NCBI GenBank assembly: GCA_921293015.1
Contig: OV121091.1
Span: 12,801,755 to 12,865,754 of the forward strand
DNA: 64,000 bases
Reading direction: 5' to 3'
Source of the DNA: Phorcus lineatus
Taxonomy: Eukaryota; Mollusca; Gastropoda; Trochida; Trochidae
The notes below the pieces were generated by a model that was given only the letters and a program-made list of their open reading frames with translations, was not told the DNA's origin and made no database searches. Shown here one piece after another: positions 8,165 to 62,733 of this stretch. Numbering within the stretch: position 1 is the first letter of the stretch; each line of letters opens with the position of its first letter. The translations under genes and the position numbers were made by a program.

Positions 8165-8219
8165 ATGGGTGTGACCGAATTTCTAGTTCTTCTTTCAATG
8201 ACCATTGGAGTTATCTGCT
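8165..8219 (+). CDS. Gene B exon: signal peptide
   Basis: An acceptor CAG at 8161-8163 is followed one base later by ATG. It encodes MGVTEFLVLLSMTIGVIC, a Met, short polar start and hydrophobic core typical of a secretory signal. A donor GTGGGT at 8220 gives phase 1, which joins the first VWA exon in frame; the competing donor GTGAAG at 8224 would give the wrong phase. An upstream untranslated exon is implied. Confidence 0.7.
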
Positions 8220-11200
8220 GTGGGTGAAGTAAAACAGAGCATTTTTTCTATATTATTTTATCATTATAATATAAGTATTCATAATTTATTAAATTGTTTG
8301 ACATAACAGTCTGTTTGCAGTATTTGTAAATGAGGTTAAAACAATAGGTTACATGCGACGTATTAATAAAATGCTTTTTCTTCAGTAAAACAATGCAGCA
8401 TGCCTACAGACATAATTCTCCTGCTTGATGGTTCTGGCAGTGTCTCGGCTGACGATTGGATAAATCAATTAAGTTTTGCAGAAAGATTTATTGAAACTCT
8501 TGACATCAAACCAGACGGAATCCGTGTTGGAGTTGTCACGTTTGGCAAAGTCATAGGAGACGTCATTGGACTTGAACCCTTTGTTTCCAAATCTGAGTTG
8601 AAAACGCTCCTTAGAGGTTTAGTACAACCAATGTCTAAGACCAATACTGCATTGGGTATAGAGCAAGTTCGAGAACTTTTCAGGCATCAGGGACGTCCAG
8701 ACGTGGCCTACAAGGCTGTTGTGCTAACTGATGGCCAATCTACAAACAAAACACAAACCATCAAACAAGCCGAAATTGCAGAGAGTGACGGGATCGTCAT
8801 GACGGCTGTTGGCATTGGTAGAGATATTGACATTGCAGAACTGAAGGCAATCGCAAGCTCTGAAAAGCATCTATTTAATGTCTCTGACTTCGAATCTCTA
8901 CCTGGACTCCTGGAAGACCTCACGCAAGGCATATGTAGAGTTGAGGTGAATTTGGGTGAGTAAAGTAAAGTTGATACTCAAAGTTGATGTACTAAATTCT
9001 ATGGTTGCTGATTTTAATAGTTGATCACGATCTTCTTATTTCCAAAATTTTTATTGCCAAAATATATACCTACAAAGTTGTTTACCATTGGCACCGAGTT
9101 CCTATAGCTTTTCAAATGATATATAGATGTAAAAGTTAAATGTTCATGGTTTATGTATCAAGTATTCTTTAAAAATAACAAACTGAAGATTGATCTTCAT
9201 ATAAGTTCATTACCAACCGGTGTCACAACATAGTGATCATCGGGGTAACTTATACGTTGTATTTGTAAATGAGGTTAAAACAATAGGTTACATGCGACGT
9301 TTTATGAAAAAGGTAGATTAGGAACACGCAATTGATTGTTAACCATTTTAATAAAATGCTTTTTCTTCAGTAAAACAATGCAGCATGCCTACAGACATAA
9401 TTCTCCTGCTTGATGGTTCTGGCAGTGTCTCGGCTGACGATTGGATAAATCAATTAAGTTTTGCAGAAAGATTTATTGAAACTCTTGACATCAAACCAGA
9501 CGGAATCCGTGTTGGAGTTGTCACGTTTGGCAAAGTCATAGGAGACGTCATTGGACTTGAACCCTTTGTTTCCAAATCTGAGTTGAAAACGCTCCTTAGA
9601 GGTTTAGTACAACCAATGTCTAAGACCAATACTGCATTGGGTATAGAGCAAGTTCGAGAACTTTTCAGGCATCAGGGACGTCCAGACGTGGCCTACAAGG
9701 CTGTTGTGCTAACTGATGGCCAATCTACAAACAAAACACAAACCATCAAACAAGCCGAAATTGCAGAGAGTGACGGGATCGTCATGACGGCTGTTGGCAT
9801 TGGTAGAGATATTGACATTGCAGAACTGAAGGCAATCGCAAGCTCTGAAAAGCATCTATTTAATGTCTCTGACTTCGAATCTCTACCTGGACTCCTGGAA
9901 GACCTCACGCAAGGCATATGTAGAGTTGAGGTGAATTTGGGTGAGTAAAGTAAAGTTGATACTCAAAGTTGATGTACTAAATTCTATGGTTGCTGATTTT
10001 AATAGTTGATCACGATCTTCTTATTTCCAAAATTTTTATTGCCAAAATATATACCTACAAAGTTGTTTACCATTGGCACCGAGTTCCTATAGCTTTTCAA
10101 ATGATATATAGATGTAAAAGTTAAATGTTCATGGTTTATGTATCAAGTATTCTTTAAAAATAACAAACTGAAGATTGATCTTCATATAAGTTCATTACCA
10201 ACCGGTGTCACAACATAGTGATCATCGGGGTAACTTATACGTTGCATTTGTAAATGAGGTTAAAACAATCGGTTACATGCGACGTTTTATGAAAAAGGTA
10301 GATTAGGAACACGCAATTGATTGTTAACCATTTTAATAAAATGCTTTTTCTTCAGTAAAACAATGCAGCATGCCTACAGACATAATTCTCCTGCTTGATG
10401 GTTCTGGCAGTGTCTCGGCTGACGATTGGATAAATCAATTAAGTTTTGCAGAAAGATTTATTGAAACTCTTGACATCAAACCAGACGGAATCCGTGTTGG
10501 AGTTGTCACGTTTGGCAAAGTCATAGGAGACGTCATTGGACTTGAACCCTTTGTTTCCAAATCTGAGTTGAAAACGCTCCTTAGAGGTTTAGTACAACCA
10601 ATGTCTAAGACCAATACTGCATTGGGTATAGAGCAAGTTCGAGAACTTTTCAGGCATCAGGGACGTCCAGACGTGGCCTACAAGGCTGTTGTGCTAACTG
10701 ATGGCCAATCTACAAACAAAACACAAACCATCAAACAAGCCGAAATTGCAGAGAGTGACGGGATCGTCATGACGGCTGTTGGCATTGGTAGAGATATTGA
10801 CATGGCAGAACTGAAGGCAATCGCAAGCTCTGAAAAGCATCTATTTAATGTCTCTGACTTCGAATCTCTACCTGGACTCCTGGAGGACCTCACGCAAGGC
10901 ATATGTAGAGTTGAGGTGAATTTGGGTGAGTAAAGTAAAGTTGATACTCAAAGTTGATGCACTAAATTCTATGGTTGCTGATTTTAATAGCTGATCACGA
11001 TCTTCTTATTTCCAAAATTTTTATGGCCAAAATATATACCAACAAAGTTGTTTACCATTGGCACCGAGTTCCTATAGCTTTTCAAATGATATATAGATGT
11101 AAAAGTTAAATGTTCATGGTTTATGTATCAAGTATTCTTTAAAAATAACAAACTGAAGATTGGTCTTCATATAAGTTCATTACCAACCGGTTTCACAACA

Positions 11201-14200
11201 TAGTGATCATCAGGGTAACTTATACATTGTATTTGTAAATGAGGTTAAAACAATAGGTTACATGCGACGTTTTATGAAAAAGGTAGATTAGGAACACGCA
11301 ATTGATTGTTAACCATTTTAATGAAATGCTTTTTCTTCAGTAAAACAATGCAGCATGCCTACAGACATAATTTTCCTGCTTGATGGTTCTGGCAGTGTCT
11401 CGGCTGACGATTGGATAAATCAATTAAGTTTTGCAGAAAGATTTATTGAAACTCTTGACATCAAACCAGACGGAATCCGTGTTGGAGTTGTCACGTTTGG
11501 CAAAGTCATAGGAGACGTCATTGGACTTGAACCCTTTGTTTCCAAATCTGAGTTGAAAACGCTCCTTAGAGGTTTAGTACAACCAATGTCTAAGACCAAT
11601 ACTGCATTGGGTATAGAGCAAGTTCGAGAACTTTTCAGGCATCAGGGACGTCCAGACGTGGCCTACAAGGCTGTTGTGCTAACTGATGGCCAATCTACAA
11701 ACAAAACACAAACCATCAAACAAGCCGAAATTGCAGAGAGTGACGGGATCGTCATGACGGCTGTTGGCATTGGTAGAGATATTGACATGGCAGAACTGAA
11801 GGCAATCGCAAGCTCTGAAAAGCATCTATTTAATGTCTCTGACTTCGAATCTCTACCTGGACTTCTGGAAGACCTCACGCAAGGCATATGTAGAGTTGAG
11901 GTGAATTTGGGTGAGTAAAGTAAAGTTGATACTCAAAGTTGATGTACTAAATTCTATGGTTGCTGATTTTAATAGCTGATCACGATCTTCTTATTTCCAA
12001 AATTTTTATTGCCAAAATATATACCTACAAAGTTGTTTACCATTGGCACCGAGTTCCTATAGCTTTTCAAATGATATATAGATGTAAAAGTTAAATGTTC
12101 ATGGTTTATGTATCAAGTATTCTTTAAAAATAACAAACTGAAGATTGGTCTTCATATAAGTTCATTACCAACCGGTTTCACAACATAGTGATCATCAGGG
12201 TAACTTATACATTGTATTTGTAAATGAGGTTAAAACAATAGGTTACATGCGACGTTTTATGAAAAAGGTAGATTAGAAACACGCAATTGATTGTTAACCA
12301 TTTTAATCAAATGCTTTTTCTTCAGTAAAACAATGCAGCATGCCTACAGACATAATTCTCCTGCTTGATGGTTCTGGCAGTGTCTCGGCTGACGATTGGA
12401 TAAATCAATTAAGTTTTGCAGAAAGATTTATTGAAACTCTTGACATCAAACCAGACGGAATCCGTGTTGGAGTTGTCACGTTTGGCAAAGTCATAGGAGA
12501 CGTCATTGGACTTGAACCCTTTGTTTCCAAATCTGAGTTGAAAACGCTCCTTAGAGGTTTAGTACAACCAATGTCTAAGACCAATACTGCATTGGGTATA
12601 GAGCAAGTTCGAGAAATTTTCAGGCATCAGGGACGTCCAGACGTGGCCTACAAGGCTGTTGTGCTAACTGATGGCCAATCTACAAACAAAACACAAACCA
12701 TCAAACAAGCCGAAATTGCAGAGAGTGACGGGATCGTCATGACGGCTGTTGGCATTGGTAGAGATATTGACATGGCAGAACTGAAGGCAATCGCAAGCTC
12801 TGAAAAGCATCTATTTAATGTCTCTGACTTCGAATCTCTACCTGGACTCCTGGAAGACCTCACGCAAGGCATATGTAGAGTTGAGGTGAATTTGGGTGAG
12901 TAAAGTAAAGTTGATACTCAAAGTTGATGTACTAAATTCTATGGTTGCTGATTTTAATAGTTGATCACGATCTTCTTATTTCCAAAATTTTTATTGCCAA
13001 AATGTATACCTACAAAGTTGTTTACCATTGGCACCGAGTTCCTATAGCTTTTCAAATGATATATAGATGTAAAAGTTAAATGTTCATGGTTTATGTATCA
13101 AGTATTCTTTAAAAATAACAAACTGAAGATTGGTCTTCATATAAGTTCATTACCAACCGGTTTCACAACATAGTGATCATCAGGGTAACTTATACATTGT
13201 ATTTGTAAATGAGGTTAAAACAATAGGTTACATGCGACGTTTTATGAAAAAGGTAGATTAGGAACACGCAATTGATTGTTAACCATTTTAATGAAATGCT
13301 TTTTCTTCAGTAAAACAATGCAGCATGCCTACAGACATAATTTTCCTGCTTGATGGTTCTGGCAGTGTCTCGGCTGACGATTGGATAAATCAATTAAGTT
13401 TTGCAGAAAGATTTATTGAAACTCTTGACATCAAACCAGACGGAATCCGTGTTGGAGTTGTCACGTTTGGCAAAGTCATAGGAGACGTCATTGGACTTGA
13501 ACCCTTTGTTTCCAAATCTGAGTTGAAAACGCTCCTTAGAGGTTTAGTACAACCAATGTCTAAGACCAATACTGCATTGGGTATAGAGCAAGTTCGAGAA
13601 CTTTTCAGGCATCAGGGACGTCCAGACGTGGCCTACAAGGCTGTTGTGCTAACTGATGGCCAATCTACAAACAAAACACAAACCATCAAACAAGCCGAAA
13701 TTGCAGAGAGTGACGGGATCGTCATGACGGCTGTTGGCATTGGTAGAGATATTGACATGGCAGAACTAAAGGCAATCGCAAGCTCTGAAAAGCATCTATT
13801 TAATGTCTCTGACTTCGAATCTCTACCTGGACTCCTGGAAGACCTCACGCAAGGCATATGTAGAGTTGAGGTGAATTTGGGTGAGTAAAGTAAAGTTGAT
13901 ACTCAAAGTTGATGTACTAAATTCTATGGTTGCTGATTTTAATAGTTGATCACGATCTTCTTATTTCCAAAATTTTTATTGCCAAAATATATACCTACAA
14001 AGTTGTTTACCATTGGCACCGAGTTCCTATAGCTTTTCAAATGATATATAGATGTAAAAGTTAAATGTTCATGGTTTATGTATCAAGTATTCTTTAAAAA
14101 TAACAAATGAAGATTGGTCTTCATATAAGTTCATTACCAACCGGTTTCACAACATAGTGATCATCAGGGTAACTTATACATTGTATTTGTAAATGAGGTT

Positions 14201-17200
14201 AAAACAATAGGTTACATGCGACGTTTTATGAAAAAGGTAGATTAGGAACACGCAATTGATTGTTAACCATTTTAATGAAATGCTTTTTCTTCAGTAAAAC
14301 AATGCAGCATGCCTACAGACATAATTCTCCTGCTTGATGGTTCTGGCAGTGTCTCGGCTGACGATTGGATAAATCAATTAAGTTTTGCAGAAAGATTTAT
14401 TGAAACTCTTGACATCAAACCAGACGGAATCCGTGTTGGAGTTGTCACGTTTGGCAAAGTCATAGGAGACGTCATTGGACTTGAACCCTTTGTTTCCAAA
14501 TCTGAGTTGAAAACGCTCCTTAGAGGTTTAGTACAACCAATGTCTAAGACCAATACTGCATTGGGTATAGAGCAAGTTCGAGAACTTTTCAGGCATCAGG
14601 GACGTCCAGACGTGGCCTACAAGGCTGTTGTGCTAACTGATGGCCAATCTACAAACAAAACACAAACCATCAAACAAGCCGAAATTGCAGAGAGTGACGG
14701 GATCGTCATGACGGCTGTTGGCATTGGTAGAGATATTGACATGGCAGAACTGAAGGCAATCGCAAGCTCTGAAAAGCATCTATTTAATGTCTCTGACTTC
14801 GAATCTCTACCTGGACTTCTGGAAGACCTCACGCAAGGCATATGTAGAGTTGAGGTGAATTTGGGTGAGTAAAGTAAAGTTGATACTCAAAGTTGATGTA
14901 CTAAATTCTATGGTTGCTGATTTTAATAGCTGATCACGATCTTCTTATTTCCAAAATTTTTATTGCCAAAATATATACCTACAAAGTTGTTTACCATTGG
15001 CACCGAGTTCCTATAGCTTTTCAAATGATATATAGATGTAAAAGTTAAATGTTTTATGTATCAAGTATTCTTTAAAAATAACGAACTGAAGATTGGTCTT
15101 CATATAAGTTCATTACCAACCGGTGTCACAACATAGTGATCATCGGGGTAACTTATACGTTGTATTTGTAAATGAGGTTAAAACAATAGGTTACATGCGA
15201 CGTTTTATGAAAAAGATAGATTTGGAACACGCAATTGATTGTTAACCATTTTAATCAAATGCTTTTTCTTCAGTAAAACAATGCAGCATGCCTACAGACA
15301 TAATTCTCCTGCTTGATGGTTCTGGCAGTGTCTCGGCTGACGATTGGATAAATCAATTAAGTTTTGCAGAAAGATTTATTGAAACTCTTGACATCAAACC
15401 AGACGGAATCCGTGTTGGAGTTGTCACGTTTGGCAAAGTCATAGGAGACGTCATTGGACTTGAACCCTTTGTTTCCAAATCTGAGTTGAAAACGCTCCTT
15501 AGAGGTTTAGTACAACCAATGTCTAAGACCAATACTGCATTGGGTATAGAGCAAGTTCGAGAACTTTTCAGGCATCAGGGACGTCCAGACGTGGCCTACA
15601 AGGCTGTTGTGCTAACTGATGGCCAATCTACAAACAAAACACAAACCATCAAACAAGCCGAAATTGCAGAGAGTGACGGGATCGTCATGACGGCTGTTGG
15701 CATTGGTAGAGATATTGACATGGCAGAACTAAAGGCAATCGCAAGCTCTGAAAAGCATCTATTTAATGTCTCTGACTTCGAATCTCTACCTGGACTCCTG
15801 GAAGACCTCACGCAAGGCATATGTAGAGTTGAGGTGAATTTGGGTGAGTAAAGTAAAGTTGATACTCAAAGTTGATGTACTAAATTCTATGGTTGCTGAT
15901 TTTAATAGTTGATCACGATCTTCTTATTTCCAAAATTTTTATTGCCAAAATATATACCTACAAAGTTGTTTACCATTGGCACCGAGTTCCTATAGCTTTT
16001 CAAATGATATATAGATGTAAAAGTTAAATGTTCATGGTTTATGTATCAAGTATTCTTTAAAAATAACAAACTGAAGATTGGTCTTCATATAAGTTCATTA
16101 CCAACCGGTTTCACAACATAGTGATCATCAGGGTAACTTATACATTGTATTTGTAAATGAGGTTAAAACAATAGGTTACATGCGACGTTTTATGAAAAAG
16201 GTAGATTAGGAACACGCAATTGATTGTTAACCATTTTAATGAAATGCTTTTTCTTCAGTAAAACAATGCAGCATGCCTACAGACATAATTTTCCTGCTTG
16301 ATGGTTCTGGCAGTGTCTCGGCTGACGATTGGATAAATCAATTAAGTTTTGCAGAAAGATTTATTGAAACTCTTGACATCAAACCAGACGGAATCCGTGT
16401 TGGAGTTGTCACGTTTGGCAAAGTCATAGGAGACGTCATTGGACTTGAACCCTTTGTTTCCAAATCTGAGTTGAAAACGCTCCTTAGAGGTTTAGTACAA
16501 CCAATGTCTAAGACCAATACTGCATTGGGTATAGAGCAAGTTCGAGAACTTTTCAGGCATCAGGGACGTCCAGACGTGGCCTACAAGGCTGTTGTGCTAA
16601 CTGATGGCCAATCTACAAACAAAACACAAACCATCAAACAAGCCGAAATTGCAGAGAGTGACGGGATCGTCATGACGGCTGTTGGCATTGGTAGAGATAT
16701 TGACATGGCAGAACTGAAGGCAATCGCAAGCTCTGAAAAGCATCTATTTAATGTCTCTGACTTCGAATCTCTACCTGGACTCCTGGAGGACCTCACGCAA
16801 GGCATATGTAGAGTTGAGGTGAATTTGGGTGAGTAAAGTAAAGTTGATACTCAATGTTGATGTACTAAATTCTATGGTTGCTGATTTTAATAGTTGATCA
16901 CGATCTTCTTATTTCCAAAATTTTTATTGCCAAAATATATACCTACAAAGTTGTTTACCATTGGCACCGAGTTCCTATAGCTTTTCAAATGATATATAGA
17001 TGTAAAAGTTAAATGTTCATGGTTTATGTATCAAGTATTCTTTAAAAATAACAAACTGAAGATTGGTCTTCATATAAGTTCATTACCAACCGGTTTCACA
17101 ACATAGTGATCATCAGGGTAACTTATACATTGTAAAGAATACATTTTTAAAGAATATATATATATAAACTCTTCAAAAAAGGAAACTTGACTTTGACTTT

Positions 17201-20200
17201 CAAAGTTCAATATAAAGACCACAGATGCAAGTTAAACATTGGAATGAAAACTAAAACGCTGTTTGAAGATCTCTGTTCAGTATATTTTATTCAGAATAAG
17301 CATGATCTTGAAATGCACAGGTGCACAAGTGTTTCAACATCACAGGGGTGCACAAATGTCAGTATCGGGTATGGCCAATATTGGCATTGATTATTGCTTG
17401 GCACCAACGACCCATGGGATGCAATCAAGTTGTCAGTCACAGCCTGTGGAATGTTCTGCCATTCGTGCTGAAGTGCTGCAAGAGATGCTCAATTGGTGGC
17501 AAATCTGGTGACCTGGCTTGCCATGGCAATGTCTGGACATTGTTACGCTGTAAAAAGTCTTGACAAACAAGACATGTGGTCAAGCATTGTCCTGCTGAAG
17601 GAGACCACCATGGACGTTGACGTGAGGAATAATGTAAGGCTGTAGGATCAAGTTCCTATACCGTACTCCTGTGAGCCTACCCACAACATGCACAAGGGGT
17701 AACCTAACACCATGACGAATCCCGGCCCACACCATGACACTCCCACCTCCAAATGGGACAACCTCCTGAACACAGTTGGCAGCATAACGTTCTCCACGAC
17801 GTCGGTATACACGTGCACGTCCATCACTTCGTCGAAGCAGAAAACGGGACTCATCAGTGAAGAGAACGGTTCTCCACCTTGCACGTGCCCATCCCATCCT
17901 CTGTTGGCACCACTGGAGACGTTCCACCAGATCACGTTGCGTAAAACGGGAAGTTCAGCCTCTCTCAGCCTGTTGCGTACCGTGTGGTCGGAAATTCGAT
18001 GCAGGCCTGGTATCTGCGTTGTTGTTGACGTTGCTGTCCTGGAGCGTTCCCGAAGGTGGAGCAGTCGGATGTACTGATCTTGGGCCCGAGTAGTCACCCT
18101 TGGTCTGCCTGACCTTGGCCTATCATCAACGCTGTTTCGGGTGTTGAAACGGGTCCACCATGAAGAGATGGTCTGTCTGGACACGCCAAAGTGTGTTGCA
18201 ACATCTCGCTGCGTCGCTATGGTTTTTTCTACCCCTAAAGCAGACGTGTCTACATGTAAACCTTCATGATTCCATGCTGCACGTGCTTTGGCAGAAAATG
18301 CATATGGACGAATCGCTCGTTTTCGTCCCTGAACACAACGTAAACTGTTTGGGTCATTGTTTTTGGTTAATTTACACTTTTGAGCAAGCCTTTCTTTAAA
18401 TAACAGGTATGTATCGTGAAAAAAATTGACCCGTTTTGAAAAAATCAATTTCGCATGAATGTCAAGTTTCTTTTTTTGAAGAGTTTACATCGATAGAGGC
18501 ACAACAAATGTAAAACAATTCTAATAATTACAAAATCAACTCTATTTCCCAAGAGTTTCTGAATAATTTAAACACATCTTGAAAATTTGTCAACATTACG
18601 TTAGTTTGCAGTTTGTTATCAGCATTGACGCGCATGCAATCAAAGTACGTCTTAACTCCAGTCCGCATTTCTGAAATAACCTTCATTAGCATATCACGTG
18701 ACATGCAAAACTGCTACCGTTTGTAGTAACGATTCGAGCTATCAAACTTCAGGACTCGTAGATATTAAAATCAAGAGTTTTCGGTGACGGTAATTGTTTC
18801 TTAAGGGGGGGGGGGGAGTATTATCTGGTTATCCACTCAGTTATGAAGATGATGACATGCGTACATTTCTTATTTTGCAAAAAAAACTAAAGTAACGCGA
18901 TGTTGTTATAACCGAACTAGCCGTTGCGTCAATTGTTCTGTCAGATTGTGACGTCATAAAGTATGAATGCACGAGGTATAACAGCAAAATTTTCTGCATT
19001 CATCGAGAAATGGTTGCATGGTTTTTAGAGCTCTCGTCTAATCAGAATCGCCGAAAAACGTGTAACAACATCATTATGTAATTATATTGATATGTTTAGT
19101 TTGTTTCTCACTATAGCTCTAATAAATTTTAGTTTCAGAATGCAAACCTATATTTCTCTTTGCAAATGGCATAACTGATCGCCAATATGAGAAAGGAGCT
19201 ACGATAGCTGTAACCAATATCAAGTTCAACTCTGTATTAACTGGTGAGAGCAGATTGGAGTTACTGAGTCACTCAGGAGCTGACTTTGGTGAACAACTCT
19301 CCATCAATATGACCTTTAAAATGCCTTCCCTCCTTCCGAGAAGAAATCCATTCTTTTGGCCTTTACAACCTCTTGTTTCCAACTGTGAATCCTTGATGAA
19401 GGGAAAGAGGCCATCAATTTCGATCCTTGTTGGACCAAGCATAGTTGAAATGGCAGTTAAGACAGAAAAAGACGATAAACATGTCTCCTTCAACATGTCA
19501 GTGGTATGTTAAAGCGAAAATGCGTCCACAATAGAAATGAGACTAATGGAAATCAACCCATGTTCAGTGGTTGTTTGGCAAGAGTAATTGTCTGCAAACA
19601 CCATTCCTTTTGCCCCGGTCGATAACGATATGTCTCATTTCCATTGTGAACGCAGTCTCCATTTAAGTTTTCTTTCAATTGTATTTTTACTTATGCAGCT
19701 GAAGCAATACCATCTTCCGAAACCGTTCCCCAACAGTGTTTTCATACTGACAGTGCTGTCGCAATCTAAGCAGTATATATATTCTGTGAACATCCAGAAG
19801 ATTTGCATCTTTGCACATGTGCGATTTTGCAGTTAAAGAGTCATATCTTTGTCATGGGTTTTGTCAATTTAATAAAAAATCACATTCGTTAGCATTTCAT
19901 TAAAGCAAAATAGACTAAGCTATCCTAAGACGAAATTAAATGATTTATTGTTATTTGGAACGCCCTCATTTGCAAACATATGTTTGTATCATAAATCAAT
20001 GCGTATTGTCACAATCACTATTTCAGATAAGTGGTAACAACACAGTGACGTTGACGTATGATGGTTCAGACGTTGTGGCCAGGGTTAATGGTGTGGAGGA
20101 GACCAAACCTTTAGCTGGTAAACGAAATTCGTTTTGATGGAATACATCCCAATTGATGTCCTAGTAAAAAGTTCAAATAAAAGTAAACATCGGATGTTTT

Positions 20201-21351
20201 ATCGTTGACATAACCGATATTGTAAAAATTTTAAATGAATGTGTGGAACGAACTCTTTAAGTTTAAGGGTTTATAGAGCTCACGATTCGATTGTTCCACA
20301 TTTACAAAATCCACAGGCTATTCAATACAACTAGCCATCTATTTATAAATGAAAAAATCTAAAAACTGGTGTCAACACCAGATCACTATATATGTCATTG
20401 TTTCTTAAAACCTTGACTTCAAAATTCCAAATATGTAACACAAAATTTCATGTTTGTTTTGGAGCGAACAATAAAATTTCTTCAATATACCAATTTTGAA
20501 AAGTCATCCATAAGGATACTAGGTTGAGATATCGTATTGTTGTTTTACAGGAGACATAATGAAAAGAGAGACGGGGATTTCCCTTGGACTGTGCACAAGA
20601 TTTCCACCATTTGTTGGTAAAATTGAGGATGTAAGCAAAAGTGACCGGTTAAATGTGGTAGATATGGACGTCCGCTTATCTTATGTTCCACAGAAGACGT
20701 CGCTGGTGGTAATTCAAGTGATACGTCTTAAGGAATGCATGATCCTCAGGGAGATAGGCTCTATCAAATGCATTGGCAGGTTTTACTGTATGAGGAGGAG
20801 ACCTAAAGGAACTTCAGCTTGAAAATTGTCAACGTCCAAACCTTCACAAATCTAATGGTTTATTCTCCTAACATAACGTGACCATTAACCCTTTACCAGT
20901 TGTTGATCAAATGATATCATAAGAATGAACCCTATCCTATGGATTTTCAAGCATATTAACTAAAATATTCTGACCAAAAATTTTCACTGTTCCTTGAATT
21001 ATTTTGAGCTGTATGTATCGACGCTCATTTATAAACACTTCGGTAAGATGTTTTATGTAATAGAAATTTAAAGTCGATGATTTTTAATGCCCCTAAGATT
21101 GTTTCAGTTTTGCAAACTGCTCCTTCACCTAAATCATTCTCTTTTTGTAGAGAATTGATTTCACTGTAAATGTTTTTATTTTAACTAAAAGTTTCTTCTT
21201 TTCTGTGTTGTTTTGGTTTGTGAAATAAGCCTTTATTGTCAAAGTTATAGTCACACAATTTGTGCAGTGTTTTTTCAAAGAACTTTTTTTTTAATTTCAG
21301 ATCGAGATCTCTAGGTGTGGGGCTAGTACTGGTGCACATGGACACGTTTAA
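8165..21351 (+). CDS. Gene B: secreted protein with nine tandem VWA domains and a C-terminal LamG-like domain (14 coding exons)
   Basis: Join 8165-8219, nine 570-nt exons (8386-8955, 9371-9940, 10356-10925, 11341-11910, 12326-12895, 13311-13880, 14295-14864, 15274-15843, 16259-16828), 19139-19503, 20027-20117, 20551-20630, 21301-21351. The sum is 5772 nt, an uninterrupted frame of 1923 residues. Residues 1-18 are a signal peptide, 19-1728 nine VWA domains of 190 residues, 1729-1923 a LamG-like domain. All VWA copies keep the MIDAS residues (DGSGS, a Thr in KTNTALG, Asp in LTDGQS), so metal-dependent binding is expected. VWA plus LamG is the Pif/BMSP shell-matrix architecture, but no chitin-binding exon was found in this gene. 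Extracellular matrix role is inferred. The true number of VWA exons joined in mRNA is not provable from sequence, because any cassette can be skipped in frame. Confidence 0.75.
8386..8955 (+). CDS. Gene B VWA exon 1
   Basis: Phase 1-1, bounded by TTCTTCAG and G|GTGAGT. Encodes KQCSMPTDIILLLDGSGSVS onward to ICRVEVNLG. Copies 1 and 2 have Ile in the GRDIDIAEL segment where all others have Met. If the intron is retained the frame ends two codons after the exon with TAA. Confidence 0.88.
9371..9940 (+). CDS. Gene B VWA exon 2
   Basis: Same protein sequence as copy 1 (IILLLD, DIDIAEL). It is preceded by the full-length intron end that copy 1 lacks. Confidence 0.88.
10356..10925 (+). CDS. Gene B VWA exon 3
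   Basis: IILLLD and DIDMAEL type. Silent GAG in LLEDLTQ is shared only with copy 9. Confidence 0.88.
11341..11910 (+). CDS. Gene B VWA exon 4
   Basis: IIFLLD type, shared with copies 6 and 9. Silent CTTCTG in GLLEDL is shared with copy 7. Confidence 0.88.
12326..12895 (+). CDS. Gene B VWA exon 5
   Basis: IILLLD type with a private Leu-to-Ile change (VREIFRHQG). The intron end carries TAATCAAATG, shared with copy 8. Confidence 0.88.
13311..13880 (+). CDS. Gene B VWA exon 6
   Basis: IIFLLD type. Silent CTA in AELKAIA is shared with copy 8. The following intron has lost one base. Confidence 0.88.
14295..14864 (+). CDS. Gene B VWA exon 7
   Basis: IILLLD type preceded by the TAATGAAATG intron end that otherwise goes with IIFLLD copies, so it looks recombinant. 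The following intron has a 6-bp deletion and reverts to the GTGTCAC / CGGGG variant of introns 1 and 2. Confidence 0.88.
15274..15843 (+). CDS. Gene B VWA exon 8
   Basis: IILLLD type with the TAATCAAATG intron end of copy 5 and the silent CTA of copy 6. Confidence 0.88.
16259..16828 (+). CDS. Gene B VWA exon 9
   Basis: IIFLLD type with the silent GAG of copy 3. Last cassette; its phase-1 donor joins the LamG exon at 19139 after a 2.3-kb intron that holds a Tc1/mariner insertion. Confidence 0.88.
17167..18485 (-). mobile_element. Tc1/mariner element with TA target duplication
   Basis: Both ends carry the inverted repeat AACTCTTCAAAAAA(A)GAAACTTGAC in opposite orientation, with TA at 17165-17166 and 18486-18487 as the target duplication. 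Length 1319 bp, within the usual Tc1 range. It encodes a broken transposase on the minus strand. It lies in the last large intron of Gene B, about 30 bp beyond the VWA array edge. Confidence 0.92.
17480..18448 (-). pseudogene. Tc1-like transposase, frameshifted and stop-bearing
   Basis: The N-terminal part shows the helix-turn-helix segment (ATHFGVSRQTISSWWTRF) and the RPRSGRPR linker. The catalytic part, in another frame from ~17930 down, has FTDESRF (first Asp) and QQDNA (second Asp). DNARPH is cut by a stop where TGA replaces the Arg codon CGA, and the third acidic motif SPDLPPIEHL is still readable near 17481-17510 in a shifted frame. At least one frameshift and one CpG-type nonsense change make it inactive. 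Confidence 0.88.
18806..18815. repeat. Poly-G run
   Basis: About ten consecutive G in otherwise AT-rich intron sequence; likely length-variable. Confidence 0.8.
19139..19503 (+). CDS. Gene B LamG exon a
   Basis: The acceptor TTTCAG joins phase 1 to VWA9. It encodes ECKPIFLFANGITDRQYEKG.., then SINMTFKM, a 16-residue loop with a PRR dibasic, LVSNC and PSISILVG, ending phase 0 at GTATGT. Every block lines up with the ends of Gene A's giant exon (CKPSVHYTFDKG, LNMTYRM, LVTNC, PSIMILTG), which identifies it as the same LamG-like fold without the giant insert. Confidence 0.8.
20027..20117 (+). CDS. Gene B LamG exon b
   Basis: 91 nt, phase 0 to 1, encoding ISGNNTVTLTYDGSDVVARV.. Gene A has a 91-nt exon at 34746-34836 with QLVYDGS at the same place. 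Acceptor TTTCAG, donor GTAAAC. Confidence 0.8.
20551..20630 (+). CDS. Gene B LamG exon c
   Basis: 80 nt, phase 1 to 0, encoding GDIMKRETGISLGLCTRF.. to FVGKIED. Same length and motif (G-I-x-L-G-x-C .. G-x-I-E) as Gene A exon 34386-34465. Reading through the GTAAGC donor would instead extend to TGA at 20820-20822 with 63 unrelated residues. Confidence 0.72.
21301..21351 (+). CDS. Gene B terminal exon
   Basis: A strong acceptor (T8 tract, AATTTCAG) is followed by IEISRCGASTGAHGHV and TAA. GKIED + IEISRC restores the expected LamG ending with a final Cys, as in Gene A (GEIEE + FILYQC). A polyadenylation signal follows 109 bp later. Confidence 0.65.
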   Translation: MEISRCGASTGAHGHV

Positions 21352-21459: not shown

Positions 21460-21465
21460 AATAAA
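21460..21465 (+). terminator. AATAAA polyadenylation signal of Gene B
   Basis: Canonical AATAAA downstream of the terminal-exon stop codon; supports the spliced 3' end. Confidence 0.5.
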
Positions 21466-24429: not shown

Positions 24430-24746
24430 CTATACTAATATAGATATACATATTATTATTATTATATTTGTAAATTCAACAAAATATAACATAACCAACT
24501 TCTTCATAACCAACTTCTTCAGCCAAGTTGGTTTTTGAATTTCGAAATATCGAAGTCTGAAACGTATACAAAAAACTATTTTTTGAGAGACATTGTAAAA
24601 AGCATTATACTAATTTTATACTAAAACAAGAAAACGATCTGAATTATTAATCACCAAACTTTAACAACAAAAGCATGATCTGCCTTTCCCAAACCCTCTG
24701 TAATTATTTCAATAAAAGAAAGATTGCCCAATTTTGAAATTTTTAC

Positions 24747-25301
24747 CTTCACAGAGATTGCTGATATAAGTCTCGACTTTCTTTGTAACCCTCAAGCCAT
24801 CGAAGTCAGAAACCTTGAATACGTCCTTTGAGGACGTTGCTATTCCGTTGAGTACGGCATCGGTTGTTCTATTTCCAACATCAACAGCTATCATGTGAAC
24901 ACCCTCAGCCTTAGCAAGATTGGCTTCTGAAATGATTTGAGAAGGTTGCTCATAATTGTTATTGGTGATAATCACTGCGATCTTTTGGGTGTTTGGTCGT
25001 CCTTCATTTCGAAACATCTGTCTCGCTTTTGCAATAACCCCGGCTGTGTTCGGCTCAAGCCTCGGATGTGCCAGTGTGGGTAGGAGAGATCGCAGTGTTT
25101 CCTTGCTTTGGTTAAAATTTAGTTGGTCGCCAACGATGGAACGAAGGACAATCAATCCGACCTTGACCCCTGAGGGCTGAACGTCCAGTTTGTCCAACAG
25201 TTCGCTTACAAGGGCTACTTCACTTGACCAATCATGTCTTGAGATGCTGTCTGAACCATCCAATAAGAATAGAACATCCGCAGGCACTCTGCAAGGGGGT
25301 T
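24747..25301 (-). CDS. Gene 2 VWA3 exon
   Basis: 555 nt. Encodes EPPCRVPADVLFLLDGSDSI.. to YISNLCEG. DGSDS is intact but the later Asp is replaced (VIITNNNYEQ). The donor GTAAAA is usable; if skipped, the frame continues 12 residues to a TGA at 24709. Confidence 0.85.
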
Positions 25302-33467: not shown

Positions 33468-36400
33468 CTGAAAATAAGGATAAGATTTTATGGCGCTTCA
33501 TTTAGAAGGGCACATGAATAACAAATCAAGCTGTTAATTCATACATTTTAAGGCGAAACCTTTGAGAGAAGCTATATATTTAAAAACATTTAATTATTTT
33601 TGACGACAAAAATTAATGCAAGCCAGAATAATGGAATTGTTTAAGAGTATCATGGCCGAGTCAGTAATGTAATTGATATCCACTTAAATAGAAATACCAG
33701 TCAATTACCTGGCTCATAAAAAGGAGATTGGAAATATTTCATTACAAATATCACATAAAAAATGCTTTTAAAAAATTCAACTTCTCCAAAAAATATGACA
33801 AAAATCCAACAAAGGAACCTCCGTCATAAATTCCTATACAACATCTGTCTTAATACGAAGGTTTCTCGGGCTTCCGTCAGTTCCTCTACCGGCACAATAT
33901 TGCAACTTAAAATACCTGGCAATATTTCAGCTAATGAAAACAACGAATGCATGTAAAACATATTTGTTCTCATACAAGCCTGTGCAATGATACAGTCGCA
34001 AAATGACTATAGGTGCAAGGAGCATATTCGAATTAAGTTTAGCTTTTGGAAAGCTTGAGGAAATAATTTAGACGATTTGAATGATAACTTTTGAAACGGC
34101 GTCGCTGATTGCACAACTAACTTTGATTGCATCCAATCAGCGTTCTACATTTCTAAACCAAGAAACCTTCGTTTTAAGGCAGAGGTTGTATAGGAATTTA
34201 TGACGGAACTACCTCTGTTGGGAGAGAATGGTCAATGAGTTAATGTATTAGAAAATAGAAAACAATTGTTTGCATAAGCGGTCAGAGAAACGGTAAGATA
34301 ACACAAATGCTTGTCAAGGCTAGACATTGATATTGCTTTACTAGGTAACGGGTTTCACTGTAGGATTCGAACTACGAATACTAACCTCTTCAATCTCCCC
34401 CGAAAACGACGGGTACCCCTCACAAGCTCCGAGCAGAATACCGGCTTGTCGTCTCTCTATTTTACCTGTGATAAAACATAAAGGTTACTATGTAATAAGC
34501 ATAACCAGTGTCATTTACATCATATGAGAAATATGTGCATCAAAATATATTATGTAATACGTGTACCTTACTATGAATTGACCATTACAAGTGTCATTTA
34601 CAATGTACATTGTATGTGCACGATGTGCAAATATATTTTTTTAGTTTCAATACTGCATCATTTACTTACATCTTTTAATGTTCCAGATATGTAAATAATC
34701 AATTTTCATTTACAAGAATTTGCATTAATCACTGTAGATAATTACCTGACAAAGGTAGAATCTTTTCTAGGTTGTTGACAACAGCTTTGATGTGGGAACC
34801 ATCGTAGACCAATTGGACGTTGTTAAAACCAGCCCGCTATAATACAAAAAAGGAGTAGGGTTTCTTTATCAAAATGTCAGAATATTCAAAACATATTATT
34901 CAAGACACGTAAGACAGAGTCATCTTCATCCCTGACAATAGTTTAAGTGTGGAATAAGTTCGATGAATGACTATTGATATTTCTATTTTTAGAAAAGATT
35001 CCACAGTGGATATCAATCAAGCGATATCTAAATTGAAAACCCAATCGAGCACGTTCCGAGTATTAAAAAGTTTTTAAAATATTCTCCAGCGGGAATGGAA
35101 CTTAAAGGCACTAGTGCACGCTTTTACGGTTTAAATTGGCTATTTTAAGGTTTACGAGGACTTATGCATTCACTTAACTTTCTATCGATGCAATGAAATA
35201 CTAAACATTCTTTACAATTTACCTGCAATCAACAATGAAAAAGTTTAGACAGCCGCTGTCGGCTTGGACATATAAAAATCTATGGTTAGCTGTGCACAAA
35301 ACGGATAAATTATTGACACTTGGAAACGGCTGGACTAGTACTGTAAGCTGCTATTAAATTTACCTAAACTCTGAACTGAGAACAAATCATGAAACATGTT
35401 TTATGAAAGCAATGTTGTAAATTAACCCGTTTAATAACACAATATTAGCACTGTTATTAGATTGACCATAGCGGCTGCCGTTTCCGATTTTCTGGTTATG
35501 AGCAAAATCTTAATATTTCCGATATCGTAGTTCATGCGGTTTTAATGTAAAGGCCTTTAAAAATCCACTTTACTACTTGAATACGTAAATATGTGTTAAA
35601 TACCTTACGAGGTAGATTACTTGAGTGAGGATAGTGAGTAATATCGAGTGATATGCAGTATCTGTGCATTCGTTGTGTTTACGAAATATTGGCGTGCACT
35701 AGTGCGTTTAATCTAACATGGGCGTAGCTCGCACGTTCTGGCGTTACCTCTACTGACCAATTACAATTACTCTTGCAAAAGCCTTCGGTATCAGTATCTA
35801 GGGGCATGAAACACCCGTTCACCATCCGTTAAACTTGATCGCCTCTATCCTTATTTCAAACTCGATGATTTGATTGGTCTGCTAATGACTAGGTTTTTGT
35901 CTACGCTAAACTGGTGTAAGAACGTGCGAGCTATGAGGTTGTGGAGAGGAAAGCTGCTGATTAAATACGTTTGAGTCCGGCCAGAGTAAAAAATAAATTG
36001 TAATTTATTCCTCGGAAAACATGATTTTAATCAGATTGATTGAGAACCCATATAATAATGCTATGACGTCATAAAGTTCATGTGAATGTTTTCATATCGT
36101 AATGTTGATGACATTAAATGATATGCTAACTACGATGTACCGATGACAAATCAAATCTTAGGTTACATAGAGAATATCACCACATTGTCTTCTGATATAA
36201 TTTTATCAACTCACGTTGATTCAAGTAAATATATCCTCGGTAAGGCTCGGATATTTGTCCCTTTAATCGATTTGTGTTGATATAATTGATATCAGAAGGA
36301 ATTTGATATGCTCTATTTAGTCTTTAACCACTCTAAATAACTCCTGAATGTTTACTTTAAAGTTTATATAGAAGATAAAGTAGTAGTTTTAATTCAAACC

Positions 36401-39400
36401 TGCACAAATCATTCGGATTCATTTAAATTGGCCACTAGCTACCGAAAACGGATTTTTATTGGTTTTCGTCATGATATCAGAAATCCCATATCATGCCCAA
36501 ATTTAATCACATATTGAGAACGAACCTGTTAATCGAATCATTACCTACAAAAATATATACGTCATGAACAAACTACAGCTTACGTAATGAAAGTTTCTAC
36601 GGGACAAATCCCCTTTTGACCGAAATCGGATAAATTATTACCGAGATGAAAGCAGGTATAAGATACAACTCATGCTGATGACTGTGGGCATTTCCCCGGA
36701 AAATAATTTTTACTTTAACATAATATCAAGTAGTGACATGCTTCATGAAAACGAAAAAAGCAGTTTGGACATACTTACTGCAGGTAAGGACATCAGAACT
36801 GGTCGAGCCGTCCTCTCCGTTTTCAAAGAGAATATGACTCTCTTGTGCCCAGTGAGGATCATTATAGAAGGTCCTTCGCCATCTCTTCCGTTGCAGTTTG
36901 TGACCAAAGCTTGGTGCGGATTTGGGTTCTTTGCTTGTCGTTTCATCCTTGCAACAAGACTTCGTCTGGTTCTAACGTTTCCTCTCATTGATACAAGATC
37001 GTAACTCAGAGGACCGATATAGGTCTTCTTTACACCGACAGTATCCCCAGGTCCTGACATTCCCGCACCCATCATCCATGAGGGATCGTTGCTTGAGGAT
37101 GTTGATTTTGATGGCGAGCCACCTGCTAGCATAGTTTTGATTGCGTTTGGGATTTGACCATTTCCAGAATAAATCTTGCCGTCAGGGCCCATAGCCTGCC
37201 AGCGGCTGTTGGCCCCGGATCCTTGGATTATGTCAGCTGGTATTTCTCCGGTTCCCTCCCTTACCTCTCCATCAGGACCTATTAACGTCCAGTGTGTCGA
37301 TTTAGTGACTACAGATCCGAAGGTTGGACCTTGCAATATTTTATCAGGAATAGCTCCATTCCCAGAATGGACAGTACCGCCTCTGCTGATGGTCCAGCTT
37401 GTTTCTCCACCAGAACTCATCTTCTGTATCAGCTCGGCAGGGACTGATCCACTTCCAGTGATTACTGTTCCATTTGCTAACGTCAGTGTCCATGTTGTAT
37501 CAACACTCCAAGTTCCCTGTGGTTCCGATCCTTGGGCCTGACCAGATCCGGAAACCTGCCCACCTTCAATAGTTTTCACTAAATCAGCTGGCAAAGAAGG
37601 ACTTCTAGGGATGTTGGCACCAGGAATTGATGCAGCCACAGTTATTGATTTGCCACCAGTAAGAGAAGGTATATTAGCTCCTGGTATTGATCCATCTGCT
37701 CTATAAGTATCAGATTTTCCTAACATATTGTCAGGGAGTTGACCTGTTCCATTTTGCACTGTTCCGTCAGGTTTGGTTATTGACCATGTCTGCAAACTCC
37801 CGGCAAGGCTGCTTGGAATATCACCAGTTCCCTTGCGGACAACTCCTCCAGGTAGCACAACTTCCCATTGTTGGACAACTGCAGTTTGACCTCCTCCTGT
37901 TTTCTGAGCATCCTGCTGAGCATTTTGTCTCATCATCACATTGCGATATAACGATTGTAAGAGGGACTGTGGCATAGTTCCAGTGCCTGATTTTATTCCA
38001 CCTCCTAGAGTAATGATCTTCCAGCTACCATCTCCTATCCCTGACTGACTGATGATTGTTCCTGGTATCTTACCACTTGACACATCAGCAATTACATCGG
38101 CTGGAATTTCGCCATTTCCAGATTTAACAACATTACCGTCATGGCCCAGAATATACCATAAAACAACTTCCGCAGTTTGTGTTCCACCAGAACCTGAAAT
38201 GCGGATGCCATTATTGCTAGGATCAACATTACTCGTCTGGCTGGCTGTATTTGATGGCAAGGTATACTTTTTCACTGTGGGGGCCATGATCCAATCAGAA
38301 CCAGCACCACCAGAGGCTGTTCCAAGAGAAGCCCCTGACGATGGCTGCTGCTGGCCATTTCCTGATACCGACATTCCAGCTCCAATGTTAACAATTCCGC
38401 TATCTTTGTTTACCCCAGGCGTAATGGTCTGAGAAGTTTTACCAAAAGTCAACTGGCCAGATGACCCTTGTCCTTTTGGTCCAACTACGCCTTGTGTACC
38501 TGTAGCAAAACTTCCTTGGCCTGCCATTGTGTTTGCAGAAGTTGGATCAGATCCATCCTTAGATATTGTGCCCTCATTATTTGAGGTCGACCGGATGCCA
38601 TCTGTACCATATCCTGTCCCAGTTGACATGGTACCCGAACCGATGCCAATACCAGAACCTTTTCCAGGTATAGACATGCCATTTTTGGCCCCTGTATTAG
38701 GATTTTGTCTTACATCAGTTGGTAGAGATTGTCCTGGACTGTTAGTGTTTGGTAATCCAGTTCCAATCATACCATTTTGTGAACCAGTGCCTGAGTTAGA
38801 CTGCATATCGGGGAATTGTACGTTGAAACCAGGATCTTTATTAGATGTTGCTGCTGAGACTAAGATATCCCGTATCGCCTCTGAAAGTGATCCTTGTCCA
38901 CTCTTCGGTGATCCATCTCTTCCCGAAATTTGCCAGTTTATCCTTGTGCTTCCATTTCCATTTACATACTGCGCCAGATCTTGTGGGAGTTGACCACGTC
39001 CACTACGTGTTGTCCCATCTGGCAGAGTCAGATTCCAGGTAGCATCTATCGAAGGATTAAACACTGTACCTTGTCCTGGCAAGGTCGACCCAGAGTTTGC
39101 CTGGTTTTGACCAGTTTGACCAGACATGTTACTTGTTCCATCTATGCCTGTTGCCCAAGAGCCACTCCCTCCAGTCATTGAAGGTCTTCCTTCAAATCTA
39201 GATCCACCCGTCATGGTATTAGGAAATCCTTCCCCAGTATTGCTGGTCCAGGAGCCTCTCATTGTATTGCCTCCTCCAGAAACCCCCGCTGCTGGATCTA
39301 TAACACCCTGTCCTTGGGATCCTTGTGATACCCAATTAGGATCTGCACCACCCTGTCCTTGGGATCCTTGTGACATCCAAGATGGATTTTGACCAGTCTG

Positions 39401-42400
39401 CCCTTGGGAGCCTGTTGAAACCCACGATTGGTCTTGACCACCCTGTCCTTGGGATCCTTGTGATACCCACGATGGGTCTCCACCACCCTGCCTTTGGGAT
39501 CCTTGTGACATCCACGATGGATTTTGAACAGTCTGCCCTTGAGGGCCTGTTGATCCCCACGATTGATCTTGACCACCCTGTCCTTGGGATCCCTGTGATA
39601 CCCACGATGGGTCTCCACCACCCTGGCCTTGAGATCCTTGTGACATCCAAGATGGGTCTCCACCAAACTGTCCTTGCGACCCTTGGGTTGCCCAGGATGG
39701 ATCACCACCAGTCTGCCCTTGTGATCCTGGTGATACCCAAGACCCTTGTGACACCATCTGAAGTAGGTTCATTGGTATTCTACCTGTACCAGTGTTGATG
39801 ATATTTCCATCTCTTCCCATCAATTTCCAATGTCCTAGCGCTCCGGATTTTGTAACTGTTTGTTTAACAAGTGTGCCAACAATGGTGCCGCTAGCAAGAC
39901 CTCTTAGAACATCTTCTGGTATGACGTCATATCCAGATTTTCTTACTGCTCCATTGGAGTCGAGAATATACCATATGTAGGAGCCAGTGCCAAGGAAGTT
40001 TGATATTCTATCTTTTGTAATTTTTCCTGAACCTGATTCGAGTACTTTCCCAGAGGTTGAAATGATATGATACGTTGAGGAGCTTGATGGAGCACTTTCT
40101 GAAGCCCCTAGCACATATCGTACAATGACTCCATTAAGTGTGCCCTGAGACACAAGTTGAAGTATATTCTGTGGAACATCGCCATTTCCAGAACGAAGAA
40201 GTGTTCCGTTATTGTCGTAGACAAACCACATCATTCGTTTTCCCTGGTCATTAAACTTTATGATGATATCCTTGGTGATCTGACCAGTTCCCGTCTTTAT
40301 GGTTTGCCCTGCTGGGGATAGAATCTGCCATCTAGCGGTTCTGCCAGTCACGGCAGCAGCTTGTTTCACCAGGGTCCCCTGCAGCTCTCCTTTTCTAATC
40401 AAGTCGAATACCAATGGAGGAACTTCTCCATTTCCAGACCTCACAACTGTGCCGTTGGTGCCATAGACAAACCATACAATCCTCATTCCATTGACAGAGT
40501 TGAAACTTCCAATACGTCTTAGAACTTCAGGTGTCATCAAACCATCTCCAGAATTAAGGACTTTTCCTGTCGGGGAAAGAATCTGCCAAATTGGTCTGTT
40601 AGCTCCTGCAATGAGTTGACGTGCCAGCGTTCCAGAAAGAGTTCCAAGCTGCAAACCTTGGAAAACAGATGCAGGAATGGATCCTTTGTTTGATCTCAAG
40701 ACGTCTCCAGCCTCGCTAATAAGGAACCAAGCTGTGTGATGGGTGTTTCCCCCGATTCCACTAAGATCACCAGGAATGGATCCAGTGGAGGACATTCTGT
40801 AGGTCATGTTAAGAACCAGTTTGGTGCCAAATTCAACTCCTGCAAATCTCCATATATTTAGCTTACTTTTGCCATTAAATACAGCTTGTCCTCTGCCGTT
40901 TATTTGGACATTGGTGACCCCAGCCTGGACATTCTCTCCCGACTGGTCAATTACGCCTTTGTCAAATGTGTAGTGAACTGATGGCTTGCAGACTGAAATA
41001 TAAAAATTGTTCATTAATTGACGTTGTCGTTATAATGTCAAATTCAATTACGTATACTCTTATTTTATTCGAAAGTTACAGTAAACTCAACGTTAAAATG
41101 ACGTCATAACAATGTTACGTCTTAGACAACACAAAATAAGGTTAACATGATTTATTGTTTTCACCAAAGACACTCTAAGGTCACGTGAAGAAAAGACATA
41201 TGGTAACAGTGTATAGAGCTTTATTAATGACCAGTAGTCTGCTTGCACGATTCCTCGCAAAAAATTATTCTTGACCTTGACCTTGACCTACCCTCAGGGG
41301 TTATATTTCCGCTCTGGGCCCCCATTATACAACTGCACAGAGCCAGACTGAAGACAGACCCTGGAGCACAGGGACGAACTATATCTCCATAGCCTGGGAT
41401 GTTCTGGACGTAATTTCTCCGGTCTGAGTGAGGCTTCATCGTACATTTCACTAGGTAAAGAGAAATAGTTTTTAATCCGTAAAATGCGTTTCATTGTTGC
41501 ATAAACAGTTAGCAGTTATTGGCGGTACAATAGCTGCTCATAGTTGATGGTTATCAATCGTTCAGTTTACTGGGTAAAGCAATCTGGTTGTTATTGTTTG
41601 GTACATTTACGTAACACTGTACATATTAATTGGGAAAATAGATTTTGTAATGATTAATCATGCTATTCGTGCATCCGATTTTATATGAAAATAAAAGGTA
41701 GTATTAAAGCGATGATTAAATTTGATGGTGATCGTACTGTTTGAGTGCAAGGCCCTCTTCGGTGAAAAGTTGCAATTCACATTTGATTGCCAATGGACAG
41801 TCGAGAAAAATCGCAATAGCCTAGACGACAAGCACAAAAAGTTTGGGGAAATGCTGCAAGAACTGCATTAATCATTCATTGTTGTTGGCGTTCTTTAAAT
41901 CTTTTTCGTCAGTTACTCAACGGCAGTTCCGAGGAGGCGAAAAAAAAGATTTATATCCTACTCACTCTCGGTGTTGTCGGCTGGTGGGTCGGGCGGACAC
42001 TTTTCGACACATGTGGGGTCTCTGACACACCCGACATTTGCCAAGTAGCGGGTACCCTTGGGGCAGCAGGAAGGTATGGAGTTACCTCCCCTGCACATCC
42101 AGTAGGCTCGACATCCGTTTCCGTTATAATTGTGCACAGTGTTATCAGGGCGATTCTTGCAGGGATCTGAAGACAAACCAGAAGTCATCAAATTCGTAGG
42201 TTATGATGCGTATGGGAAAGGAACATTTATCCTCTGATAAAGTATGGTGGTTATATGAGAAATCGTATTCCTCGAATTGAGGCCCCGGCGCCTATTTTCT
42301 TGTTCAGACGATCTGCAGCCTCTATAGATATGATTTGGCAAGATCATTCCGCGGGTGGAAATGTATTAATGTCAAATTCATTTTAAAAAGACTTATTTTG

Positions 42401-62474: not shown

Positions 62475-62733
62475 TCACGTAAACTTCACTTTAACAACTT
62501 GTGAGGTAGTTTCCTTTGCATTGGCATATACCAAGTAGACGTCTTTATCCTCTGTGAACACCTCCCAGTCCGCTGAAGGTTGTGTTCTAAGTTCGTGGAC
62601 CGGTACAAACTTATCGAGTCCCTGCCACCGATACACCACACTAGCCAGCTCAAGGCCCCTCCCCCCATTCTGGGCATTAGATACCACTAGGAAGTGGTCC
62701 CCACCCACGCTGAAATACTCCCAGTCTATTGCG
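62475..62733 (-). CDS. EAR gene last exon
   Basis: AIDWEYFSVGGDHFLVVSNA.. VVYRWQGLDKFVPVHELRTQ, then DWEVFTEDKDVYLVYANA and KVKFT stop. One complete EAR blade plus the start of the closing one. Acceptor GTTCCAG. Confidence 0.85.

Follow-up and report, generated by a model that had tools for sequence, protein, structure and literature searches.

A tandem array of nine near-identical VWA exons in a predicted Pif/BMSP-type gene of the gastropod Phorcus lineatus

The Pif/BMSP proteins of molluscs form a family defined by the VWA clade of a molluscan VWA tree, and a chitin-binding domain (CBM_14) is present in 38 of its 50 members (PMC11291548; this and the other papers are cited here from excerpts of their text). 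Tandem VWA domains have been described in some of them: each of the five bivalve BMSPs has four, and a BMSP of Lottia has two (PMC11291548). Here we describe a gene of Phorcus lineatus (Gastropoda; Trochida; Trochidae) in which nine nearly identical VWA exons follow one another. It lies in a stretch of 64,000 nucleotides, referred to as the window (NCBI GenBank assembly GCA_921293015.1, contig OV121091.1, positions 12,801,755 to 12,865,754, forward strand). Like the described Pif/BMSP proteins, its product combines N-terminal VWAs with a C-terminal LG-type region which can be aligned to that of Pif (PMC11291548, PMC7747718); a putative signal peptide precedes the VWAs. Like the oyster Pif/LamG3 genes, the gene belongs to an inverted cluster of paralogs (PMC10543319). 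It differs from the family, as far as the excerpts describe it, in having nine near-identical VWAs where bivalve BMSPs have four and other members one or two, and in that no chitin-binding domain was found and the LG region has no low-complexity insert.

Two further systems outside this family invite comparison. The N-terminal region of collagen VI alpha-3 contains about ten VWAs in a row, resembling beads on a string (PMC3919171), and this chain also gave the best solved-structure match by total score (9han_C, E=1.3e-68). Its VWAs, however, are divergent and attached to a collagen chain, whereas those of Phorcus are clones of one exon and are not accompanied by a collagen repeat. In behaviour, the nearest counterpart is abalone VERL, another extracellular mollusc protein with a long array of a single domain under concerted evolution, in which repeats 3-22 of the 22 repeats share at least 95% nucleotide identity (PMC2704960). 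VERL consists of egg-coat repeats of ~153 aa, and the excerpt reports no introns between repeats 1-2 and 3-22 (PMC2704960), while in the present gene the VWAs stand in separate phase 1-1 exons, with introns included in the repeated unit. The original prediction knew of no described shell-matrix gene with such a homogeneous VWA array; our search of the open-access literature likewise found none. Within that search, the longest VWA array seen described for the Pif/BMSP family has four domains, and no gene of shell type was listed whose tandem VWAs exceed this number.

The array consists of nine tandem units of ~985 bp on the plus strand, each made of one VWA exon and its intron (Table 1). All nine exons, spanning 8386-16828, measure exactly 570 nt, are of phase 1-1 and have open frames, and their starts are 985 bp apart in six cases and 984 and 979 bp apart in the other two. 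The splice-site hexamers are the same in nine of nine, with the acceptor CTTCAG before the exon and GTGAGTAA after it (donor GTGAGT). In the first unit 46 bp of the left intron are missing, and the other units are 98.4-99.8% identical to the reference unit at 9351-10335. With 190 residues each, the exons encode 1,710 residues of tandem VWA, as had been predicted together with the exon length, phase and period. Copies 1 and 2 specify the same protein, and the remaining copies differ from copy 1 at one or two residues, at three positions overall; the peptide LFNVSDFESLPGLLEDLTQGICR and its family are common to all nine. When a 658-nt piece of the unit was used as query against the 958-Mb genome, nine copies were recovered at 99-100% identity, followed by the VWA of a paralog (P1, see below) at 72% and a 147-nt match at 71%, and nothing else. 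Chance need not be considered as the source of nine ~985-bp units at more than 98% identity. The idea of nine separate genes was dropped, as signal and LG exons are absent between the cassettes, and so was that of a satellite, as the exons are constrained and the splice sites intact.

Together with a signal exon and four C-terminal exons, the nine VWA exons form a model of 14 coding exons and 1,923 aa without an internal stop, in which 13 of 13 introns have GT/AG borders. The gene limits first proposed, 8165-21351, are borne out by homologues of both the signal exon and the last exon in two paralogs, and the open splicing of the full model supports the view that the cassettes belong to one gene. 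Their phase neutrality was confirmed as well: phase 1 occurs both at the end of the signal exon and at the start of the first C-terminal exon, and the frame is therefore kept whatever the number of cassettes. The N-terminus is hydrophobic and homologous to those of both paralogs, and is regarded as a putative signal peptide on the strength of its sequence and in spite of a weak donor. An in-frame deletion of 9 nt has occurred in this exon, and the alignment places the donor GCT/GTGGGT at the GTAAGT site of the paralogs. A phase-2 donor was therefore rejected in favour of the one at 8219 to which the paralogs point, and a scan of the window upstream gave no better candidate for a signal exon. 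Likewise, reading the exon at 20551 on into the intron, to a stop at 20822, was abandoned because the paralogs show a last exon at 21301-21351. The VWA itself was recognised by Pfam (PF00092) with 118.5 bits against a cut-off of 23.8 (E=4.7e-34). The motifs DGSGS, SKTNTALG and LTDGQS, which we take to be those of the metal-dependent adhesion site (MIDAS), occur nine times each in the protein. Every VWA has two cysteines 180 residues apart, and nine residues separate the last cysteine from the first of the next domain; terminal cysteines often close VWA domains (PMC3919171).

The origin of the array can be approached through its relatives, since a row of related genes occupies a joined stretch of 193 kb. 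Two paralogs situated 70-95 kb away have one VWA each and the same exon plan. P1 (C17:12,714,503-12,720,339, minus strand; C17 is the contig of the window) splices to 413 aa with a signal peptide, a single VWA and C-terminal exons that correspond, also in phase, to those of the nine-VWA gene, and P2 (about C17:12,732,969-12,739,337, minus strand) has the same pieces, which are not joined into one spliced model. In P1 the MIDAS-like motifs, presumably with the role assumed above, are partly lost (DGSSN; TGKS for TDGQS), whereas they are intact in nine of nine array copies. In a tree of 75 VWA exons from this genome, the nine array VWAs form one clade (99/89) that is sister to P1 and P2 (100/98); they group with the VWA of a neighbouring gene and the other VWAs of the cluster (95/84). 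Being one clade, the nine do not correspond to the four of BMSP, and the array is probably a lineage-specific amplification from one to nine exons in a VWA-LG gene of Pif/BMSP type. Another relative of the C-terminal LG-type exons was seen on a different contig (C25:31,907,041-31,907,921), in two pieces of 34% and 57% identity.

Family membership was assessed at the C-terminus with two pieces of the Pinctada fucata Pif LG region (N-part and C-part) printed in PMC11291548, using gapless alignment and comparing each score with 2,000 shuffles. The score of the nine-VWA gene was reached by 3 and 2 shuffles, those of P1 by 4 and 0, those of the neighbouring gene by 0 and 7 and those of a VWA control by 1,379 and 1,829, so that by this test both parts of an LG-type region are present at the C-terminus, as in the family. 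The BMSP-subfamily plan of four VWAs, chitin-binding domain and LG is not followed, as there are nine VWAs and no chitin-binding domain was found. When the two such domains of the neighbouring gene were used in tblastn over the 193 kb, only that gene matched, and none was detected in the nine-VWA gene, P1 or P2. This absence is compatible with membership because CBM_14 is not obligatory by the count of 38 in 50 (PMC11291548). The presumed kinship with a shell-matrix family is thus supported by the combination of VWA with a Pif-like LG region and by the adjoining gene with VWA, chitin-binding and LG parts.

The variation among the units bears on how they arose and were maintained. With substitutions counted and indels left out, the exons of the nine copies have 6 variable sites out of 570 and the introns 18 out of 415 (Fisher P=0.0013). 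Compared in pairs, the copies differ on average by 0.40% in the exons and by 1.42% in the introns, so that the exons are ~3.5 times less diverged. The introns are 98.6% alike on average and the mean divergence of whole units is 0.82%. The claim that introns are as similar as exons therefore failed. Nonsynonymous variants (3 of ~437 sites) are rarer than synonymous and intron variants together (21 of ~548; P=0.0013). Since exons vary less than introns, purifying selection on the exons after amplification is favoured. The four-gamete test on ten informative biallelic sites revealed 11 incompatible pairs out of 45, indicating that the variants are mosaic among copies; pairs of sites with all four combinations require either exchange among the copies or recurrent mutation. 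Adjacent units resemble each other no more than distant ones do (Spearman 0.09, P=0.62, nine units), so the order of stepwise growth cannot be read from them. Each of the nine units differs from every other, and similarity was not raised at any lag between 1 and 6 (the smallest fraction of random orders was 0.18).

The explanation we favour, with a probability of about 0.7, is that a single-VWA gene of Pif/BMSP type became a nine-VWA gene for a secreted matrix protein by tandem exon amplification followed by exchange. The array with its open frames and splice phases, the one-VWA paralogs, the single clade, the mosaic variants and the exon constraint are direct observations. The ancestor would have resembled the two single-VWA paralogs of the same cluster. 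One phase 1-1 exon and its introns would have been duplicated in tandem, and a 3-bp GTA common, by eye, to the outer array ends and the inner junctions is compatible with a first duplication at microhomology. Unequal crossing over would then have amplified the units, and later exchange between them, through crossing over or gene conversion, may have shuffled the few variants. The product is predicted to be a secreted, acidic matrix protein with a signal peptide, nine VWAs, an LG-type C-terminus and no detected chitin-binding domain, the mature chain having 207 kDa, a pI of 4.9 and 21 N-glycosylation sequons. It may be pictured as nine beads on a string, every one closed by a disulfide and carrying an intact MIDAS.

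As to function, the protein is most likely a secreted multivalent matrix adhesive, judging by its relatives. Pif80 and nacrein were recovered in a pull-down with the VWA of Pif, as were two proteinase inhibitors and one collagen-like protein (PMC11291548), and RNA interference against six VWA proteins disordered the nacre of pearl oyster (PMC5597905). By comparison with the binding of Pif VWA to Pif80 and nacrein, nine VWAs would provide nine-fold avidity for matrix partners, and shell or periostracum is the likeliest site of action. Other matrices are conceivable because the chitin-binding domain is missing and a byssal protein, mussel PTMP1, is close. PTMP1 (4cn8) is also a secreted tandem VWA protein and the closest solved invertebrate relative among the matches listed (E=1.1e-32), although it has two divergent VWAs and its solved chain has no LG-type region. 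That the gene encodes a VWA-LG protein of a non-shell matrix, such as pedal mucus, egg coat or a matrix for immune recognition, is the best of the alternatives but rather unlikely. In its favour, tblastn found no chitin-binding domain in the paralogs either, and Lottia PifG members without chitin-binding and LG domains were not found in shell, by the excerpt of PMC11291548. Nevertheless, the Pif-type LG region and the cluster shared with a VWA, chitin-binding and LG gene speak for a shell-type matrix.

Homogeneity could also result from continuing gene conversion at exon level rather than from recent amplification. Such conversion appears to act in this genome. In a row of VWA exons at C17:30,448,001-30,497,000 the most similar pairs agree at 93-99% along the aligned exon, but their introns are unrelated in 7 of 7 pairs. 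The likeness ends no more than 86 bp from the domain ends, near exon borders (7/7), although in one pair there is a second, weaker piece (338 bp at 70%) and in another a piece of 56 bp. This pattern points to gene conversion confined to exons or passing through cDNA. More generally, among the other VWA exons (150 of 317 candidates were scored, so that this comparison set is incomplete), 20 of 66 have a partner at 95% DNA identity or more and 26 of 66 at 90% or more. None of 12 high-identity pairs examined elsewhere lay within a nine-fold array including introns, which makes the array described here the extreme case among the VWA exons examined. The mosaic variants also agree with conversion. 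However, the introns of the array are 98.6% alike on average, so whole units must be young or have been converted together with their introns, and since P1 and P2 have one VWA each, the array postdates the split unless copies were lost. Homogenisation by exon conversion in place of recent growth is therefore improbable.

Several observations weigh against amplification of a functional Pif/BMSP-type gene. Pfam gave no LG hit (Laminin_G_3) for the C-terminus at E<=10, that of P1 reaching E=0.11, below the cut-off, and no solved structure matched the C-terminus. Synonymous and nonsynonymous sites on their own (3 versus 3) are without significance (P=0.14), and divergence from P1 indicates only moderate constraint, with an omega of 0.46 for the VWA and 0.79 for the C-terminal region. 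The signal-exon donor is weak, and an older reading of it two GTs further downstream would run into a stop. Finally, an 8,001-bp tandem duplication without a mismatch and with one gap lies ~17-20 kb upstream (C17:12,777,468-12,793,465), and each of its copies contains one VWA exon. It is either very recent or false and shows that recent tandem copies arise here, whether in the assembly or in the region itself; because of it the assembly of the array should be viewed with caution.

The array could instead be an assembly expansion, the animal having fewer cassettes and the assembler having repeated a unit or joined the units of two haplotypes. The mean unit divergence is within the range that allelic differences in molluscs can reach, and the 8,001-bp duplication could itself be false. 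Still, we consider this quite improbable: no two units are identical, the variants are mosaic rather than arranged as two block haplotypes, the array of 8.8 kb is shorter than ordinary long reads, and no second copy or haplotig of the locus was found among 74 contigs. The flat profile across lags 1 to 6 likewise argues against it, and concatenation of two ordinary haplotypes was dropped for want of a lag signal. Very improbable is a decaying gene, in which the array grew but expression or export was lost through a damaged signal exon or donor: the GTGGGT left by the 9-nt deletion, the omega of the C-terminal region and a transposon in the intron after the array fit it, but 14 of 14 coding exons are open with all phases in agreement, the lower variability of exons needs selection after amplification, and the MIDAS motifs, partly lost in P1, are intact in 9 of 9 copies.

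The amplified gene is followed in the window by other members of the cluster. On the minus strand, a neighbouring gene with two VWAs, CBM_14 and a split LG has the Pif/BMSP layout. Its CBM_14 domain scored 33.0 bits, above the cut-off, and the CBM_14-like one 18.5 against a cut-off of 22.1, thus below it. The LG region is interrupted by a long insert within an open frame of 1,428 codons (41029-36746, minus), which fits the description of Pif/BMSP proteins, whose partial LG pieces are separated by long inserts, and a 45/135-bp tandem repeat is located in this frame at 39293-39742. A 39-bp repeat at 43860-44286 (10.9 copies with 96% matches) lies between the second VWA and the chitin-binding exon, as does a 22-bp repeat without mismatches at 43195-43324 (5.9 copies). 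Three VWA exons at 24712-28169 (minus) deviate in their MIDAS-like motifs and sit on long branches of the tree, and tblastn found no LG or chitin-binding exon beside them; possibly they represent a decayed or very divergent family member. A minus-strand frame at 62478-62753, translating by eye to repeats like those of EAR/EPTP type, belongs to an unrelated gene at the end of the window. The transposon listed in Table 1, which we presume to be Tc1/mariner-like, has inverted repeats at 17162-17194 and 18458-18490 (30 of 33 positions matching) and an HTH_28 hit (E=7.1e-7).

Table 1. Coordinates of the nine-VWA gene, its array and the neighbouring gene in the window.
Feature	Position	Strand	Basis or remark
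Signal-peptide exon MGVTEFLVLLSMTIGVIC, ends in phase 1, donor GCT/GTGGGT; acceptor of 5' untranslated region just upstream	8165..8219	+	aligns to P1 and P2 signal exons
VWA array, nine ~985-bp units	8321..17132	+	unit alignment
VWA exon 1, phase 1-1	8386..8955	+	open frame, splice sites; Pfam VWA E=4.7e-34
VWA exon 2	9371..9940	+	open frame, splice sites
VWA exon 3	10356..10925	+	open frame, splice sites
VWA exon 4	11341..11910	+	open frame, splice sites
VWA exon 5	12326..12895	+	open frame, splice sites
VWA exon 6	13311..13880	+	open frame, splice sites
VWA exon 7	14295..14864	+	open frame, splice sites
VWA exon 8	15274..15843	+	open frame, splice sites
VWA exon 9	16259..16828	+	open frame, splice sites
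Transposon in last array-side intron	17162..18490	-	33-bp terminal inverted repeats, helix-turn-helix transposase-like frame
C-terminal (LG-type) exon 1, phase 1-0	19139..19503	+	homologous to minus-strand gene and P1/P2 LG exons; aligns with the N-part of Pif LG as published
C-terminal (LG-type) exon 2, phase 0-1	20027..20117	+	homology to neighbour and P1/P2; Pif LG comparison
C-terminal (LG-type) exon 3, phase 1-0, donor GTAAGC	20551..20630	+	homology to neighbouring gene and paralogs
Last coding exon IEISRCGASTGAHGHV, stop TAA	21301..21351	+	homologous to FTISRCVPKTGSAP (P1) and FTIFRCVPSTGSVAE (P2)
AATAAA, candidate polyadenylation signal	21460..21465	+	motif only
Putative Pif/BMSP-type neighbouring gene	34371..50113	-	VWA, CBM_14 and LG parts; not spliced end to end
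Neighbour, signal exon	~50113-50047	-	exon ends by eye
Neighbour, first VWA	~49522-48965	-	exon ends by eye
Neighbour, second VWA in three exons	47808-47650, 47127-46891, 44751-44563	-	
Neighbour, CBM_14	43120-42920	-	Pfam
Neighbour, CBM_14-like	42167-41967	-	Pfam
Neighbour, LG N-part	40990-40787	-	
Neighbour, LG C-parts	36919-36773, 34833-34744, 34472-34371	-	

The number of VWAs is the main difference among Pif/BMSP proteins, and arguments on its evolution (one, two, four) have so far relied on domains that are old and divergent. In Phorcus lineatus the increase from one to nine would be recent enough to be read, as the borders, the mosaic variants, the constraint and the single-VWA parents are all found in one cluster; in an assembly built from short reads, such a gene would be collapsed to a single VWA. 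Because the cassettes stay in frame at any count, copy number may be changeable. We tentatively suggest, as a possibility still open to considerable doubt, that VWA number is fast-changing and perhaps polymorphic, with unequal crossing over between ~99% identical units and with selection keeping the copies functional, so that individuals or isoforms would differ in bead number, fibre length and avidity. If true, bead number would vary here as repeats do in VERL, the matrix concerned being that of a biomineral or a cuticle.

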